From assembly GCF_035989265.1 (NCBI RefSeq), contig NZ_JAYKZX010000003.1:1364001-1428000 (forward strand): a stretch of 64,000 nt of DNA, written 5' to 3'. Source of the DNA: Sphingobium sp. HWE2-09 (GTDB taxonomy: Bacteria > Pseudomonadota > Alphaproteobacteria > Sphingomonadales > Sphingomonadaceae). Positions 43,137-61,145 of this stretch are shown here, one piece after another. The first letter of the stretch is position 1, and each line of letters begins with the position of its first letter. The notes below the pieces were generated by a model. It was not told where the DNA came from. It saw only the letters and a program-made list of their open reading frames with translations, and made no database searches. The position numbers and the translations under genes are program-made.

Positions 43137-43223
43137 GTCATCCCCGCGAAGGCGGGAATCCATCTCCGGCGTTGGCGACGGCCGCTGCGTCGGGAGATGG
43201 GTTCCCGCCTTCGCGGGAATGAC
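43137..43223. repeat. Palindromic repeat, family B (copy in the glcB leader)
   Basis: GTCATCCCCGCGAAGGCGGG at the left and TTCCCGCCTTCGCGGGAATG followed by AC at the right are inverted copies. The inner ATCTCCGGCG and CGGGAGATGG also pair. Sister copy with the same inner parts is inside the cysteine desulfurase gene (60705-60790). Confidence 0.85.
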
Positions 43224-55716: not shown

Positions 55717-57327
55717 TCAAGCACTCCATTGTTCGAGCGTATCGTCCAGCTCGGCATCGGGGAAGGCAGTCATCGCCGCCTTGACCACCGGGGTTTCCAA
55801 TATGTCGGCGCGGGCATCCGCCACCTTGCGCTGTTCCTGTTCCAGCAGGGTCGGTTCCCCGCCGGCATCGCTTTGCGCCAGTTTCCAGGCGACGCCGGTC
55901 ACGTCGCGCAGGGCCGGCAGCATCCGCGTGGCAAAGTCCGACGAGAGTTGCGGGGTCGGGCGATAGTCCAGTTCGGGCGGCGCATAGCGCACCAGTCCGA
56001 TACAATCATGCAGTTCCTGCGCCAGTTGCCCCTTGCCCTTCTGCCAGAAGGCTTCGATCAGGTCGGGAAAGGTGGCGGGCAGGCTGGCGGACGGGCTGGG
56101 TGACTGAGCAGCGGGCGGTGCGCCCGGTGCCGACGCCGGGGCAGCGGGCGCGCCTTCGCGCAGCATCCGCGCCAGTTCGCCAGGGTCGGGCATGGTGGCT
56201 GCGTGCATGACGCGCAACAGCGCCATTTCGCAGCTTTCGATCGGCAGGATGGCGCTAGCCACCTCGTCATGCCCCTTGAGCAACAATTGCCACAGGCGAT
56301 GGAGCGGCGCGAAGCCCAGTTGCGACGCCCATTCCGCCAGCGCGTCGCGCTCTTCGGCGGACTGGCCGGGGCTGACGATATCGCGGCCCGCCTTGACCAG
56401 CGTCACGGCATGGGTGAGTTCCAGCAGGCCGCGCATCAGCGCCAGCGGCTCGACGCCCAGCGCATAGTGATCGCGCACCGCGCCCAGCAAAGCGGCGGTG
56501 TCGCCCTCCAGCAGCAGGCCCAGCAGACGCCGCACCGATCCGCGATCGGACAGGCCCAGCATGTCGCGCACCTGCGCGGCGGTGACCATCGGCGCGGCAC
56601 CGTCGCCCATTTCCGCATGGGCGATCGCCTGGTCGAGGATGGAGAGGCCATCGCGCGCCGATCCCTCGGCCGCCTGCGCGATCAGTGCCAGCGCATCGGC
56701 TTCGGCCGCGACGCTTTCGGCCTCCACCACATGGGCGAAATGGGCGGCGAGCAGTTCGGCCGGGATGCGGCGCAGGTCGAAGCGCTGGCAGCGCGACAGC
56801 ACCGTCACCGGCACCTTGTTCACTTCGGTCGTGGCGAACAGGAATTTCACATGGGCCGGCGGCTCCTCCAGCGTCTTCAACAGCGCGTTGAAGGCGTTTT
56901 TGGAGAGCATATGGACTTCGTCGATGATGTAGATCTTGTAGCGCGCCGACACGGCGGCATAGCGCACCGCCTCGATAATCTCACGCACATCGTCCACGCC
57001 GGTATGGCTGGCGGCGTCCATTTCCACCACATCGATATGCCGACCCTCGGCGATGGCGACGCACGGTTCGCACACGCCGCACGGATCGATGGTGGGACCG
57101 CCCTGCCCGTCCGGGCCGATGCAGTTCAAGGCCTTGGCGATCAGCCGCGCGGTGGAGGTCTTGCCCACGCCGCGCACGCCGGTCATCAGGAAGGCATGGG
57201 CCAGTCGCCCCCGCTTGATCGCGTTGCCCAGCGTCTGGACCATCGCATCCTGCCCGATCAGCTCCCGAAAACTGCGCGGTCGATATTTGCGCGCCAGGAC
57301 GCGGTAGGGCTGCGGGGAATCGGACAT
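55717..57327 (-). CDS. dnaX: DNA polymerase III subunits gamma/tau
   Basis: Clamp-loader ATPase; 536 residues. MSDSPQPYRVLARKYRPRSF starts the family N-terminus. Walker A is GVRGVGKTSTARLIAKALNC; the zinc motif is DPCGVCEPCVAIAEGRHIDV preceded by a further Cys in LNCIG; Walker B and sensor 1 are YIIDEVHMLSKNAFNALLKT, then EEPPAHVKFLFATTEVNKVP. Domain III follows, with a short, Pro/Ala-rich region near 400-420 and a C-terminal part of about 110 residues. The SRP RNA gene lies just upstream on the same strand. Confidence 0.97.
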   Translation of the reverse strand: MSDSPQPYRVLARKYRPRSFRELIGQDAMVQTLGNAIKRGRLAHAFLMTGVRGVGKTSTARLIAKALNCIGPDGQGGPTIDPCGVCEPCVAIAEGRHIDVVEMDAASHTGVDDVREIIEAVRYAAVSARYKIYIIDEVHMLSKNAFNALLKTLEEPPAHVKFLFATTEVNKVPVTVLSRCQRFDLRRIPAELLAAHFAHVVEAESVAAEADALALIAQAAEGSARDGLSILDQAIAHAEMGDGAAPMVTAAQVRDMLGLSDRGSVRRLLGLLLEGDTAALLGAVRDHYALGVEPLALMRGLLELTHAVTLVKAGRDIVSPGQSAEERDALAEWASQLGFAPLHRLWQLLLKGHDEVASAILPIESCEMALLRVMHAATMPDPGELARMLREGAPAAPASAPGAPPAAQSPSPSASLPATFPDLIEAFWQKGKGQLAQELHDCIGLVRYAPPELDYRPTPQLSSDFATRMLPALRDVTGVAWKLAQSDAGGEPTLLEQEQRKVADARADILETPVVKAAMTAFPDAELDDTLEQWSA

Positions 57328-57487: not shown

Positions 57488-57540
57488 GGCGCGGCATATG
57501 GCGAAGTGGTGGCGCGATGGCAAGGGGGCTTGGGCTAGGC

Positions 57541-57606
57541 GTGTTCCCGCGAAGGCGGGAACCCAGTTGAGACGGCGGGACTGGGTTCCCGCCTTCGCGG
57601 GAACAC
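57541..57606. repeat. Palindromic repeat, family B (short complete copy)
   Basis: GTGTTCCCGCGAAGGCGGGA and the inverted TTCCCGCCTTCGCGGGAACA flank a short centre. It lies just past the 3' end of the beta-lactamase gene, ahead of ffs, and may serve as a 3' end structure. Shares the GCGAAGGCGGGAA unit with the copies at 43137 and 60705. Confidence 0.82.
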
Positions 57607-57614
57607 GCCACAAA

Positions 57615-58583
57615 TTATTCCAACCCGCTCTTCTGCGCCTTGCCGACGAAATCGAGCGCGGCGCGCGCCGTTTCCGCGATGGCGGCTTCGGCCTTTTTGG
57701 CGTCCACGGTGGGGCGGTCGAGATAGATGGCCAGGATATATTCGTCGCCATTGGGCGATTTCACCAGCGCCACGTCATTATAGGCGGTGCCGCAGCTGCC
57801 GGTCTTGCTGCCCGATGTCCAGCCTTCGGGCAGGCCCGCCCTGATCCGCTTGTCGCCGGTGCTGCTGGCATTGAGCCAGGCGCGCAGCCTGTCGACGCTC
57901 GTCGGCTTCATGTCGCGGAACAGCAGGCGGCCCATCAACCCGGCCATCGCGGCGGGCGAGGTCGTGTCGCGCGGGTCGCCTTCGACATTTTCGTTGAGCG
58001 ACGGTTCGTTGCGGTCGAGCCGCGTGATCGTATCCCCATGGGCGCGCATGAAGGCGGTCAGGCCGTCCGGCCCGCCCAGCATCGGCAGCAGCAGGTTGGC
58101 GGCGCTGTTGTCGCTGACCTCGACCGCCGCCTGGGCCAGTTCGCCCATGCTCATGCGGCCGCGCTTCTTGTTCTTTTTCACGACGGGCGAATAGTCGAGG
58201 ATATCGTCGCCGCTGAACGGGATTTCCCCCTCCAGCCCGAACTTGCCGCCCTCCGCGCCGATCAGCACGGCGGCGGCCAGCGGTGCCTTGAAGGTCGAGC
58301 ACATCGCGAATTGTTCGTCGCGGTTGAAACCCAGCAGCAGCGCGCCGCTCTTGTCCACCAGCGCCACACCCAGTCGCCCGCCGGTTTCCTTCTCGATCTC
58401 CGCCGGATTGCGCACCGACGTCAACGCCGATTGCGGTACGAGATAGCGGGGCGCGGGTGGCAGGACCGAATCCAACTGGCCGGTGGGTTCGGGCGCCTTG
58501 GGCGGCGCTTTCTTGTCGGCGGCGATCGACGGCGCGGTGAGCAGGGCCAGCGCGATGCAAGCGGTCAATATCTTCACGGTCAC
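57615..58583 (-). CDS. Class A beta-lactamase with carbapenemase-type cysteine pair
   Basis: A 322-residue periplasmic serine beta-lactamase. The signal peptide is MTVKILTACIALALLTAPSI ending near ...SIAA, followed by a Pro-rich linker. All active-site motifs are present: SxxK as MCSTFKAP (Ser96/Lys99; Ambler 70/73), SDN at 157-159 (130-132), ExxLN as NEPSLNEN (Glu193/Asn197; 166/170), and KTG as SKTGSCGT (Lys260; 234). Cys95 and Cys264 are at Ambler 69 and 238, where KPC, SME, NMC-A and IMI have their disulfide. The start overlaps the ferredoxin stop (ATGA); no ampR is adjacent. A carbapenem spectrum is not proven. Confidence 0.93.
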   Translation of the reverse strand: MTVKILTACIALALLTAPSIAADKKAPPKAPEPTGQLDSVLPPAPRYLVPQSALTSVRNPAEIEKETGGRLGVALVDKSGALLLGFNRDEQFAMCSTFKAPLAAAVLIGAEGGKFGLEGEIPFSGDDILDYSPVVKKNKKRGRMSMGELAQAAVEVSDNSAANLLLPMLGGPDGLTAFMRAHGDTITRLDRNEPSLNENVEGDPRDTTSPAAMAGLMGRLLFRDMKPTSVDRLRAWLNASSTGDKRIRAGLPEGWTSGSKTGSCGTAYNDVALVKSPNGDEYILAIYLDRPTVDAKKAEAAIAETARAALDFVGKAQKSGLE

Positions 58584-58915
58584 ATGCCCTGCATATTGTT
58601 GAACTCACCGGGGATACGGACGGTCAAAGTGTCCAGCTTTTCGTCCAGCAGAATCTGGCACGCTAGGCGGCTGGTTCGGGTGGCGGCGGCGGCGAGATCC
58701 AGCATATCCTCTTCATCCTCGCTGGCGCGCGGGAGTTTGGCGAAATCGTCGGCGTCGATGATGACATGGCAGGTGGAGCAGGCCATCTGCCCCTCGCACG
58801 TTCCCTCCAGCGGTTGGCCCGCCGCCTGGGCGATATCGAGCAACACCGATCCTGTGGGTGCGTCAACCTCCTGTCGTCTCTCGCCATCGGCGCTGATGAA
58901 GGTGACCCTGGTCAT
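58580..58915 (-). CDS. 2Fe-2S ferredoxin (adrenodoxin-type)
   Basis: A 111-residue electron carrier. The cluster ligands are in GTCEGQMACSTCHVIIDADD (Cys-x5-Cys-x2-Cys) and SRLACQILLDE (fourth Cys). FISADGERRQEVDAPTGSVL starts it, and TVRIPGEF is the end. Adrenodoxin-type ferredoxins often serve Fe-S assembly or cytochrome P450. Here it is downstream of two cysteine desulfurases and overlaps the beta-lactamase start by four bases. Confidence 0.94.
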   Translation of the reverse strand: MTRVTFISADGERRQEVDAPTGSVLLDIAQAAGQPLEGTCEGQMACSTCHVIIDADDFAKLPRASEDEEDMLDLAAAATRTSRLACQILLDEKLDTLTVRIPGEFNNMQGM

Positions 58916-58935: not shown

Positions 58936-60024
58936 TTACGGCGCCGCTTGTGCGGCTGCCGCCTCGTTCAATGTTGTTGCAGCCCTCTCCATCTCGTCCC
59001 GGCTCGTGTAGCGGCCAAAGCCGATCCGCACCGATCCGCGCGCCTGGCCGTCCGTCAGGCCCAGCGCGCGCAGCACATGGCTAGGCCGCCCGGACCCGCT
59101 TGCGCAAGCGCTTCCCAACGAAAAAGCAACATTGCGGCAATAGGACAACAGTCTTGCCCCGTCGATTCCATCGCGCCGCAGATTGAGATTGCCGGGATAG
59201 CGGTGGATGTCGGACCCGTTGAGCGTCCAGTCGGCGAACAGCGTGCGGGCCAGCGCGGCTAGGCTTTCGACATGGGCGCGGTCGGCGTCGGCGCGTTCGC
59301 GCATCAGTCGCGCGGCGACGCCGAAACCGGCGCAAAGCGCGGGCGAGAGCGTGCCGGAGCGCAGGCCGCCCTCCTGCCCGCCGCCATGGATCAGCGGCGC
59401 GGGTCGTACGCCATCGCGAAGCCACAGCGCGCCGACGCCCTTGGGACCATGAATTTTGTGCGCACTGATCGCGACCATGTCGCAGGATGGCGGGATGGGC
59501 ACGCGGCCATAGCCCTGCACCGCGTCGCACAGGAACAGCGCGCCTGCGCGGTGCGCCAGGTCGGCGAGCGCCTCGACGGGCTGAATCACGCCGATCTCGT
59601 TATTGACGAGCATGGCGACAACGAGTGCGACACCTGGAACGATGGCGCGGGCGGCGGCCTCCAGATCGACGAGGCCGTCCGGGCCGACGGGCAGGACCGT
59701 CACATCCCGCCCGGCCCGGGCCATTGCTTCGGTCGTATCCAGCACGGCGGCATGTTCGGTCGCGATCGTGACGATGCCGCCGGGCGGCGCACCCTGGATC
59801 GCGATGTTGAGCGCTTCGGTCGCGCCGGAGGTGAAGAGGAGCTTGCCGTCGGGGGGCAGCAGCCGGGCGATCTCGTCACGCGCGACTTCCACCTGCGCGG
59901 CGGCGGCGCGGCCCAGGCGATGGGCGCTATGGGGGTTGGCGAACTGGTCGCGCAAGAGCGGGACCATCGCGTCGAACGCCTCGGGCGCGAGCGGCGTCGT
60001 CGCCTGATAATCCAGATAGATCAA
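58936..60024 (-). CDS. Cysteine desulfurase (NifS/IscS-like)
   Basis: A PLP enzyme releasing sulfur from cysteine; about 362 residues. The frame opens earlier at 60087, but a TTG at 60024 (reading LIYLDYQATTPLAPEAFDAM as MIYL...) starts the family N-terminus and overlaps the upstream stop as TTGA, which suggests coupling. PLP lysine is in MVAISAHKIHGPKGVGALWL, and the loop with nucleophile Cys in AFSLGSACASGSGRPSHVLR. LVVAMLVNNEIGVIQPVEAL is the usual NNE region, with Ile instead of Thr after Glu. It is the second of two desulfurases in the cluster. Confidence 0.9.
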   Translation of the reverse strand: MIYLDYQATTPLAPEAFDAMVPLLRDQFANPHSAHRLGRAAAAQVEVARDEIARLLPPDGKLLFTSGATEALNIAIQGAPPGGIVTIATEHAAVLDTTEAMARAGRDVTVLPVGPDGLVDLEAAARAIVPGVALVVAMLVNNEIGVIQPVEALADLAHRAGALFLCDAVQGYGRVPIPPSCDMVAISAHKIHGPKGVGALWLRDGVRPAPLIHGGGQEGGLRSGTLSPALCAGFGVAARLMRERADADRAHVESLAALARTLFADWTLNGSDIHRYPGNLNLRRDGIDGARLLSYCRNVAFSLGSACASGSGRPSHVLRALGLTDGQARGSVRIGFGRYTSRDEMERAATTLNEAAAAQAAP

Positions 60025-61145
60025 CGGCTTGCTCTTTGCATCATGGCACCCCAGACAGCGAGGAACCTGTCCATGTCGCTGTCGCACGTCTGCGGGCCGA
60101 AGCTGACGCGGACGACCTGCGACGCGACATCCTCGTCCCAGCCCATCGCGCCCAGCACATGGCTGGTCTTGAGCGACCCGGACGAACAGGCGCTGCCCGC
60201 CGACACCGATATGCCCGCCATGTCGAATTGGATCAGCTGGGCGCGGGCCGACAGGCCGGGCATGCGGTAGCTGGCGATGGTGGGCAAGCGCGGCGCATTG
60301 CGCGCGACGATGATGCCGCCCGCCGCCTCTATGCCTGCGTCCAAACGAGCGCGCATCTGCGCGGCGCGGGGCGGCCAGTTCTCGCGCGCCTCCAGCGCCG
60401 CGGCCATGGCGAGAATGGCGGGCAGATTTTCGGTCCCGGCGCGATAGCCCTGTTCCTGCCCGCCGCTCGGTTCGATCAGGGCGAGGTCGCGGATCAGCAG
60501 CGCGCCGATGCCGGGTGGGCCGCCAAATTTATGCGCGCTGATCGCGATCATGTCCGCGTCCGGCAGCGGGAGTTTGCCTGCGCTCTGGGCGCAGTCGGCA
60601 AACAGGATCGCGCCGTTGCGGGCGATCGCGTCGAGCGGCTGAATCACGCCGGTTTCGTTGTTGACGTGCTGGATGGCGAGGAGCGCTCTTCCCTCTCCTC
60701 GATCGTCATCCCCGCGAAGGCGGGGATCGATCTCCGGCGCTGCATCTGGGGATGGGGTGGGAGATGGGTTCCCGCTTTCGCGGGAATGACGGGGGGAAAG
60801 GACGAGGCCATTCCTATCCACCGCCAGCCGCTCAGCGTCCTTCGTCACGCGCAAGACGGCGTCATGCTCCACCGGCGAGGTGACGATCCGCCCGGCCTTC
60901 GCGCGGGTCAGGCCGATGGCGATCGCCTCGCTGGCGCCTGACGTGAAAAGGACATGTCCGGTCCACCCCAGCGCTGCGACGATACGCGCCCGCGCATCCT
61001 CCAGCGCGGCGCGGGCGGCACGGCCGTCGGCGTGGGGGCTGGACGGATTGGCCCAGTTCGCCATCGCCTCTACCATCGCCGCCTGCGCGGCGGGCAGCAT
61101 GGGCGTGGTCGCGGCGTGATCGAGATAAAGACGGTCGGCAGCCAA
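60021..61145 (-). CDS. Cysteine desulfurase with an in-frame palindromic repeat insertion
   Basis: A second NifS/IscS-like enzyme, 374 residues. MAADRLYLDHAATTPMLPAA starts it; PLP lysine in ISAHKFGGPPGIGALL; nucleophile Cys in SVSAGSACSSGSLKTSHVLG. Between NGLVL and RALLAIQHVNNETGVIQPLD there is extra sequence: SPRHSRESGNPSPTPS, then DPRLRGDDD. That stretch is the translation of an 86-bp family B palindromic repeat (60705-60790, about residues 119-147). The frame is intact on both sides. Whether the enzyme is active depends on tolerance of this loop. Divergent from the alpha/beta hydrolase gene. Confidence 0.9.
   Translation of the reverse strand: MAADRLYLDHAATTPMLPAAQAAMVEAMANWANPSSPHADGRAARAALEDARARIVAALGWTGHVLFTSGASEAIAIGLTRAKAGRIVTSPVEHDAVLRVTKDAERLAVDRNGLVLSPRHSRESGNPSPTPSPDAAPEIDPRLRGDDDRGEGRALLAIQHVNNETGVIQPLDAIARNGAILFADCAQSAGKLPLPDADMIAISAHKFGGPPGIGALLIRDLALIEPSGGQEQGYRAGTENLPAILAMAAALEARENWPPRAAQMRARLDAGIEAAGGIIVARNAPRLPTIASYRMPGLSARAQLIQFDMAGISVSAGSACSSGSLKTSHVLGAMGWDEDVASQVVRVSFGPQTCDSDMDRFLAVWGAMMQRASR
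60705..60790. repeat. Palindromic repeat, family B, inside a coding sequence
   Basis: GTCATCCCCGCGAAGGCGGG and TTCCCGCTTTCGCGGGAATG, then AC, are inverted copies; the inner ATCTCCGGCG and GGGAGATGG match those of 43137-43223. It is wholly within the cysteine desulfurase gene. Confidence 0.88.

Follow-up and report, generated by a model that had tools for sequence, protein, structure and literature searches.

Repetitive extragenic palindromic (REP) sequences also occur in pairs, and in REPINs such paired REPs make a long hairpin. REPINs are associated with GTAG-tagged REPs and with the presence of a RAYT gene. According to Di Nocera, De Gregorio and Rocco (2013; PMC3733652), a CGTC REP unit has its CGTC tag, a stem of 8 bp with AT as the first bases, a loop of 4 nt and a CCA tail; the units form head-to-head dimers of many copies, mostly in alphaproteobacteria including Sphingobium chlorophenolicum. 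A dedicated transposase was unknown to these authors. Some CGTC REPs were found inside open reading frames (ORFs) of several species, as dimers or groups coding for 20-30 amino acids; recB of two Xanthomonas species carried different REPs at about one site, and other genes carried them at different sites. RPE-4 and RPE-6 of Rickettsia were equated with CGTC REPs. Rickettsia palindromic elements lie in frame inside unrelated metabolic genes, are about 150 bp long and encode a conserved peptide each (Ogata 2000, 2002, as described in parts of PMC10969869 and PMC3733652). Inverted repeats are also contained in mitochondrial protein-coding genes of Nematomorpha, for which the sections of PMC6649704 used here name no dispersed REP family. 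Here, an in-frame palindromic element of a cysteine desulfurase gene of Sphingobium sp. HWE2-09 was analyzed, located in a stretch of 64,000 nucleotides (the window; contig NZ_JAYKZX010000003.1, positions 1,364,001 to 1,428,000). It is likely a CGTC-type REP dimer, and the desulfurase, on which selection still acts, likely has a permissive loop there, at which dimers arrive, are exchanged and are trimmed, being tolerated and not needed.

The gene and the parts of the element, as read from the sequence, are the following.

60021..61145, minus strand: NifS/IscS-like cysteine desulfurase gene carrying the element, 374 amino acids, TTG start
60704..60791, minus strand: CGTC-type REP dimer, family A, encoding enzyme residues 119-148; its GTCAT...ATGAC part is 60705-60790
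60704..60730, plus strand: REP unit 1 with CGTC tag, 8-bp stem ATCCCCGC/GCGGGGAT (8/8 pairs), 4-nt loop GAAG and tail CGA
60731..60764, no strand: spacer separating both REP units
60765..60791, minus strand: REP unit 2, head-to-head with unit 1, with CGTC tag, stem ATTCCCGC/GCGGGAAC (7/8 pairs), loop GAAA and tail CCA

The palindrome measures 86 nt, or 88 nt including the flanking C and G, with the CGTC tag at both outer ends. The ORF at 60021-61145 on the minus strand is free of stops across the element, and residues R119-D148 read RHSRESGNPSPTPSPDAAPEIDPRLRGDDD. Folding of the 88-nt element RNA yielded -48 kcal/mol compared to a shuffle mean of -25.8 (z -6.9), and 0 of 200 shuffles were equally good. 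The frame used by the desulfurase has a mean hydropathy of -0.81, the most hydrophilic of the six frames reaching -1.16. By its tags, units and copies the insert is to be classed as a CGTC-type REP dimer (family 1 of PMC3733652): the tag is found at the outer end of each unit, the stem, loop and tail have the described form, and many dispersed head-to-head dimers (at least 21) are present. The length of about 150 bp and the conserved peptide of the Rickettsia elements were not found, as the element has 86-88 nt and no frame is open in all copies. A GTAG REPIN mobilized by RAYT was ruled out, since the ends are CGTC and the genome of HWE2-09 is without a PF01797 match. In this genome no match to Y1_Tnp (PF01797) was obtained at E<=0.001, transposases of other types not having been searched. 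PF01797 matches were found in 23 of 94 genomes of the genus and in 5 of 18 carriers of full elements; comparing these figures, no association of Y1 transposases with loop occupancy was seen.

A second family A copy lies in the window.

43137..43223, no strand: family A copy recognized by its arms; the spanning ORF of 522 amino acids is without Pfam match

The arms of both copies are 92% (38 nt) and 97% (33 nt) identical. The original prediction of an in-frame palindrome of this family inside the desulfurase was thus confirmed by sequence, open ORF and arm identity. Using the element as query, the whole-genome search gave at least 77 matches at E<=10, both strands and half-elements counted, with a best non-self E of 2.9e-21; the counts are lower bounds, as 40 of 138 first-look candidates were scored. 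In a side-by-side comparison, at least 21 copies were of full length (85-89 nt), and their ends were sharp and common to all. Each of the six frames was stop-free in just 8-13 of these 21 copies. Inspecting 22 copy loci for spanning ORFs, 19 ORFs of at least 130 amino acids were found besides that of L081, and 10 of them were scanned against Pfam: 8 showed no match, 1 matched TruB and 1 a T2SSG-type protein, where the element precedes the domain. In truB (tRNA pseudouridine synthase; L097, C3:649029-649119) the in-frame family A element sits between the Pfam N- and C-terminal domains; a truB with an in-frame REP was reported for other species (PMC3733652).

Next, loop occupancy was compared among relatives. 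The 131 gene rows comprised 98 distinct ones, L012 was added by hand (99), and 30 more distant rows, whose loops were without A, B or C by eye, were omitted from the tree, leaving 69 genes of Sphingobium and close relatives. Kind A denotes the element of the gene studied here, kind B another CGTC REP, and kind C is unlike A and B in sequence. B and C, too, are dispersed repeats: of five genomes searched at E<=1e-8, four gave matches to B and all five to C. An element or remnant, full or decayed, was found in the loop of 33 of the 69 distinct genes. Assignment from probes and peptides yielded 9 full elements and 5 remnants for A, 4 and 4 for B, and 6 and 5 for C; one B row, L012, was degenerate and assigned by eye. 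All 18 of 18 full elements, 78-86 nt in length, begin in frame 7-16 nt past the same Gly codon, and L008 carries A in the opposite orientation. The codon phase is alike for A and B (12/12) and constant for C (6/6); a common phase for all three was discarded, because it hinges on the placement of the C end, which can shift by one base in either direction. The loop comes after a conserved x-x-G turn and before the strand leading to NNETG, and its sequence and length vary among relatives. Among the 120 listed proteins nearest to the query (best 120 of 8000 scored), a list biased toward insert carriers, regular expressions identified 16 A, 15 B, 12 C, 29 remnants and 48 none or unclear. An assembly artefact, which the original prediction had considered, is unlikely because related repeats occupy the same desulfurase site in other assemblies. 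Orthologues with the protein segment but without palindromic DNA, which would have refuted the original prediction, were not encountered; by eye, the aligned relatives without the palindrome also lack the peptide. One contig of the genus (L159) contained two long NNETG-type ORFs, one of them without the usual anchors.

Three dispersed repeat kinds occupy the site in different relatives, always in frame, and even close relatives can differ in the kind they carry. On a tree of the desulfurase gene calculated without the loop, the kinds A, B and C need at least 13 changes (label shuffles 13-19; 20 of 50 shuffles), the 18 full elements need 9 and occupied versus none needs 11. Seven supported groups are of mixed state: L113/L035, L120/L125, L122/L153, L009 with L123 and L051, L010 with L003/L022/L116, the HWE2-09 gene with L133, and L002/L013. 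In the pair L122 (B) and L153 (none), 21 of 927 positions outside the loop are different, but the two loops have nothing in common from end to end, which points to short-tract allelic exchange. The bases just before the element are nearly identical in L116 (A) and L010 (B), suggesting swapping of elements, while the own flanks of C suggest its separate arrival. L001 and L004 differ by 20 codons within the element; in this pair and in L111/L005 in-frame shortening within the element left a short hairpin.

The enzyme itself looks equally constrained with or without repeats. Outside the loop the median dN/dS (ratio of nonsynonymous to synonymous substitution rates) was 0.143 for rows with a full element (162 pairs, 19 rows, one degenerate) and 0.140 for rows without (213 pairs, 22 of 36 rows). 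No variation was seen at E93, H94, D184, Q187, H205, K206 and C320 in an alignment of 54 relatives. We take K206 to be the lysine binding pyridoxal phosphate, H94 the active-site histidine and C320 the catalytic cysteine. The original prediction had placed catalytic Lys and Cys on both sides of the repeat; this has to be corrected, as K206 and C320 are both C-terminal to the insert and, among the active-site residues inspected, only H94 (with E93) is N-terminal. The PF00266 domain and the class V aminotransferase fold are present in the element-carrying enzyme, which with 196.4 bits at best stays under the NCBIfam equivalog cut-off for NifS/IscS/SufS (530.75 bits). An AlphaFold2 model gave a mean pLDDT (predicted local distance difference test) of 88.7, with values <50 in the repeat-coded loop at residues 121-131, 137-139 and 144-150.

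As a regional control, 21 stretches of 20 kb (20 fetched and the own one) with 413 genes from a rough caller were screened. Out of 36 repeat matches, 19 were located in the desulfurase gene and 12 in the intervals between called genes; a single further gene contained 4, and 1 lay in a doubtful ORF. One desulfurase match, L180, was confirmed separately, and no other called gene in these stretches approached the match count of the desulfurase gene. The gene with 4 matches, each a weak C-type match with 4 mismatches (L177 ~15179, L181 ~15582, L188 ~5620, L189 ~5407), presumably is a GIY-YIG nuclease/TrmJ methyltransferase fusion, which it resembles. The match sits at the read-through from nuclease to methyltransferase, as if the repeat had fused two genes.

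Taken together, the best reading is not a lone domesticated repeat, it is a permissive loop in which several kinds of repeat have replaced one another repeatedly. Elements would have arrived at least twice, A/B once and C separately. After arrival they may have been exchanged between strains through short-tract recombination, swapped one for another, and eroded by in-frame deletions, with short hairpin remnants left behind. The repeat-coded peptide is presumably disordered and on the surface, and it would be tolerated for this reason. No sign was found that the host needs the element-coded peptide. Of the original prediction, a dispersed palindrome that lies in frame within a coding region and seems to be tolerated is supported. 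From the term “domesticated” the in-frame repeat in the gene remains; a gained function found no support in view of the hypervariable loop, the 36 of 69 genes without a recognizable element and the low-confidence model of the loop. Alignment of orthologues showed the repeat absent or different in relatives, and a single domestication did not hold, as other repeat families occupy the same spot.

We are aware of several points that weigh against turnover in a permissive loop. The tree derives from the same gene and may be distorted by recombination, support is weak at 24 of its 66 inner forks, and the bootstrap is not settled. The observed 13 changes equal the lowest of the 20 shuffle values, so the distribution of kinds over the tree is not entirely random. 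No filled and empty pair with matching flanks, which would mark a clean insertion, was seen among the genes compared; in L122/L153 the replacement covers the loop as a whole. Each of the 9 full A alleles measures exactly 86 nt, a length found in only 2 of the 21 copies of 85-89 nt in the HWE2-09 genome, desulfurase copy included; most A alleles may therefore descend from one event. The survey rests on the 65 of 94 genus genomes in which the gene was found at E<=1e-100, and the 36 of 69 loops counted as “none or unclear” may include some decayed elements. In the regional control 19 of 20 fetched stretches came from genomes with a full-length-aligned gene, mostly element carriers, and 19 of 36 is consequently no unbiased rate. 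A pLDDT <50 was also obtained at residues 320-322 by the catalytic cysteine, for which reason low confidence is no proof of loop disorder.

Other explanations fared less well. A loop under selection, whose flexibility and charge would adjust stability or the binding of partners and which the lineages would therefore keep refilling, is improbable. The high occupancy (33/69) with different families in close relatives fits such a role; however, 36 of 69 genes are without a recognizable element, genes with and without an element have similar dN/dS outside the loop, loop sequence and length are not conserved, and among the six frames there is a more hydrophilic one (-1.16) than that used (-0.81). 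Slightly less probable still is a preferred DNA target, to which elements home by sequence and at which they are not just tolerated. The unlike repeats A/B and C begin 7-16 nt from the same codon and genomic A copies have sharp ends, but a short permissive loop by itself would yield equal closeness. Whether A/B and C have a common codon phase hinges on the end of C, and this was not counted, no common target sequence was defined, and the own genome has no Y1 transposase. We give little credit to the element acting as RNA, with an mRNA hairpin tuning expression of the downstream paralogue and a ferredoxin-like gene. Against the strong fold (-48 kcal/mol, z -6.9) and the overlap of the paralogue start with the stop of the gene stand many relatives in which both desulfurases are adjacent without an element. 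Furthermore, no terminator-like site was found on the strand of the gene (one match, on the other strand; shuffle mean 1.4). Finally, a decaying pseudoenzyme beside an intact paralogue, as originally suggested and as insert and lower NCBIfam desulfurase scores than those of the paralogue might indicate, is hardly credible and was rejected on the seven invariant active-site residues, the dN/dS of 0.143 versus 0.140 and the fold.

The genes following the element carrier are listed below.

58936..60024, minus strand: second cysteine desulfurase (paralogue), TTG start, insert-free here
58580..58915, minus strand: ferredoxin-like gene, next downstream, TIGR02007 65.5 bits, under the cut-off of 132.1
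57615-58583, minus strand: class A beta-lactamase, SGM family, 587 bits, cut-off 500

The stop of the element-carrying gene (60021-60023) overlaps the TTG start of the paralogue (60022-60024). A promoter scan found none. Further downstream, an inverted repeat of 30 bp, perfect and of a different kind, was observed at 57538-57609 of the window, between the ORFs 55717-57327 and 57615-58583. The paralogue segment matching the loop is of near-constant length in Sphingobium. Inserts in this segment were found in 2 of 79 loci read, both outside Sphingobium (Sphingomonas gilva, L070; a Sphingomonadaceae metagenome-assembled genome, L064), and none in 38 loci from the tree rows. Using the S. gilva protein, which itself carries an insert, as query, inserts of at least 7 amino acids appeared at three neighboring places in 14 of the best 120 proteins. 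A second insert site lies before W-T-x-N-G (L070:3068-4264; P0121-P0240), with inserts of at least 7 amino acids in 37 of the best 120 proteins. Apart from L070 and L064 these paralogue inserts are known at the protein level. Many second-site inserts read PLPAREG..PSLAGR and probably represent another palindromic family. Folding of L070 gave z -3.0 for site 2 and hardly exceeded shuffles for site 1 (z -1.4). A search with P0133 matched 8 of 298 genomes of the family (E<=1e-120). When these 8 were scanned for motifs, site 1 was without insert, and site 2, read in 2 of them, was insert-free with 21 amino acids; the second site is thus documented by proteins and by one DNA locus, L070. In L064 (3308-3541) the paralogue contains a longer palindrome of another kind with a strong fold (z -5.7). 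It is conceivable, if doubtful, that the loop of sphingomonad desulfurases is a true landing site, where unlike families, perhaps without own transposases, keep arriving, not only in one paralogue or one genus, and steadily supply an otherwise conserved enzyme with new, disordered segments.

In-frame REPs were previously described as scattered across many genes. At the desulfurase, one gene offers a natural series, since the loops of close relatives are variously full, swapped, trimmed or empty. This series lets one ask how CGTC REPs, which have no known transposase, arrive and leave, and it bears on whether repeat DNA supplies usable protein sequence. The naturally occurring loop forms also provide a test bed for comparison by enzyme assay. 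No report of this desulfurase was found among the literature matches listed, and the table of intragenic REPs in the supplement of PMC3733652 may list it.

Comparing the locus with known systems, as far as the sections used describe them, the mitochondrial coding palindromes of Nematomorpha (PMC6649704) share the inverted repeats in genes; they belong to animal mitochondria and to no named REP family. The original comparison with Rickettsia palindromic elements was apt, as PMC3733652 equates RPE-4 and RPE-6 with CGTC REPs. Palindromic repeats lie in frame in metabolic genes in both cases; in the desulfurase, full elements have 78-86 nt and several families share one gene site. With REPINs and RAYT the layout of paired REPs is shared, but the tags here are CGTC and the HWE2-09 genome is without Y1_Tnp. 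The closest agreement was observed for the CGTC REPs of PMC3733652, which share the tag, the stem (8 bp, AT first), the loop of 4 nt, the CCA-like tail, the dimers, the many copies and the location of some inside ORFs. Unlike these, kind C at the desulfurase site lacks the CGTC tag. Compared to the recB case of the same paper, the desulfurase site shows turnover of three kinds within a whole genus. In-frame REPs themselves are already known, and it is this turnover of repeat kinds at one site that is new.
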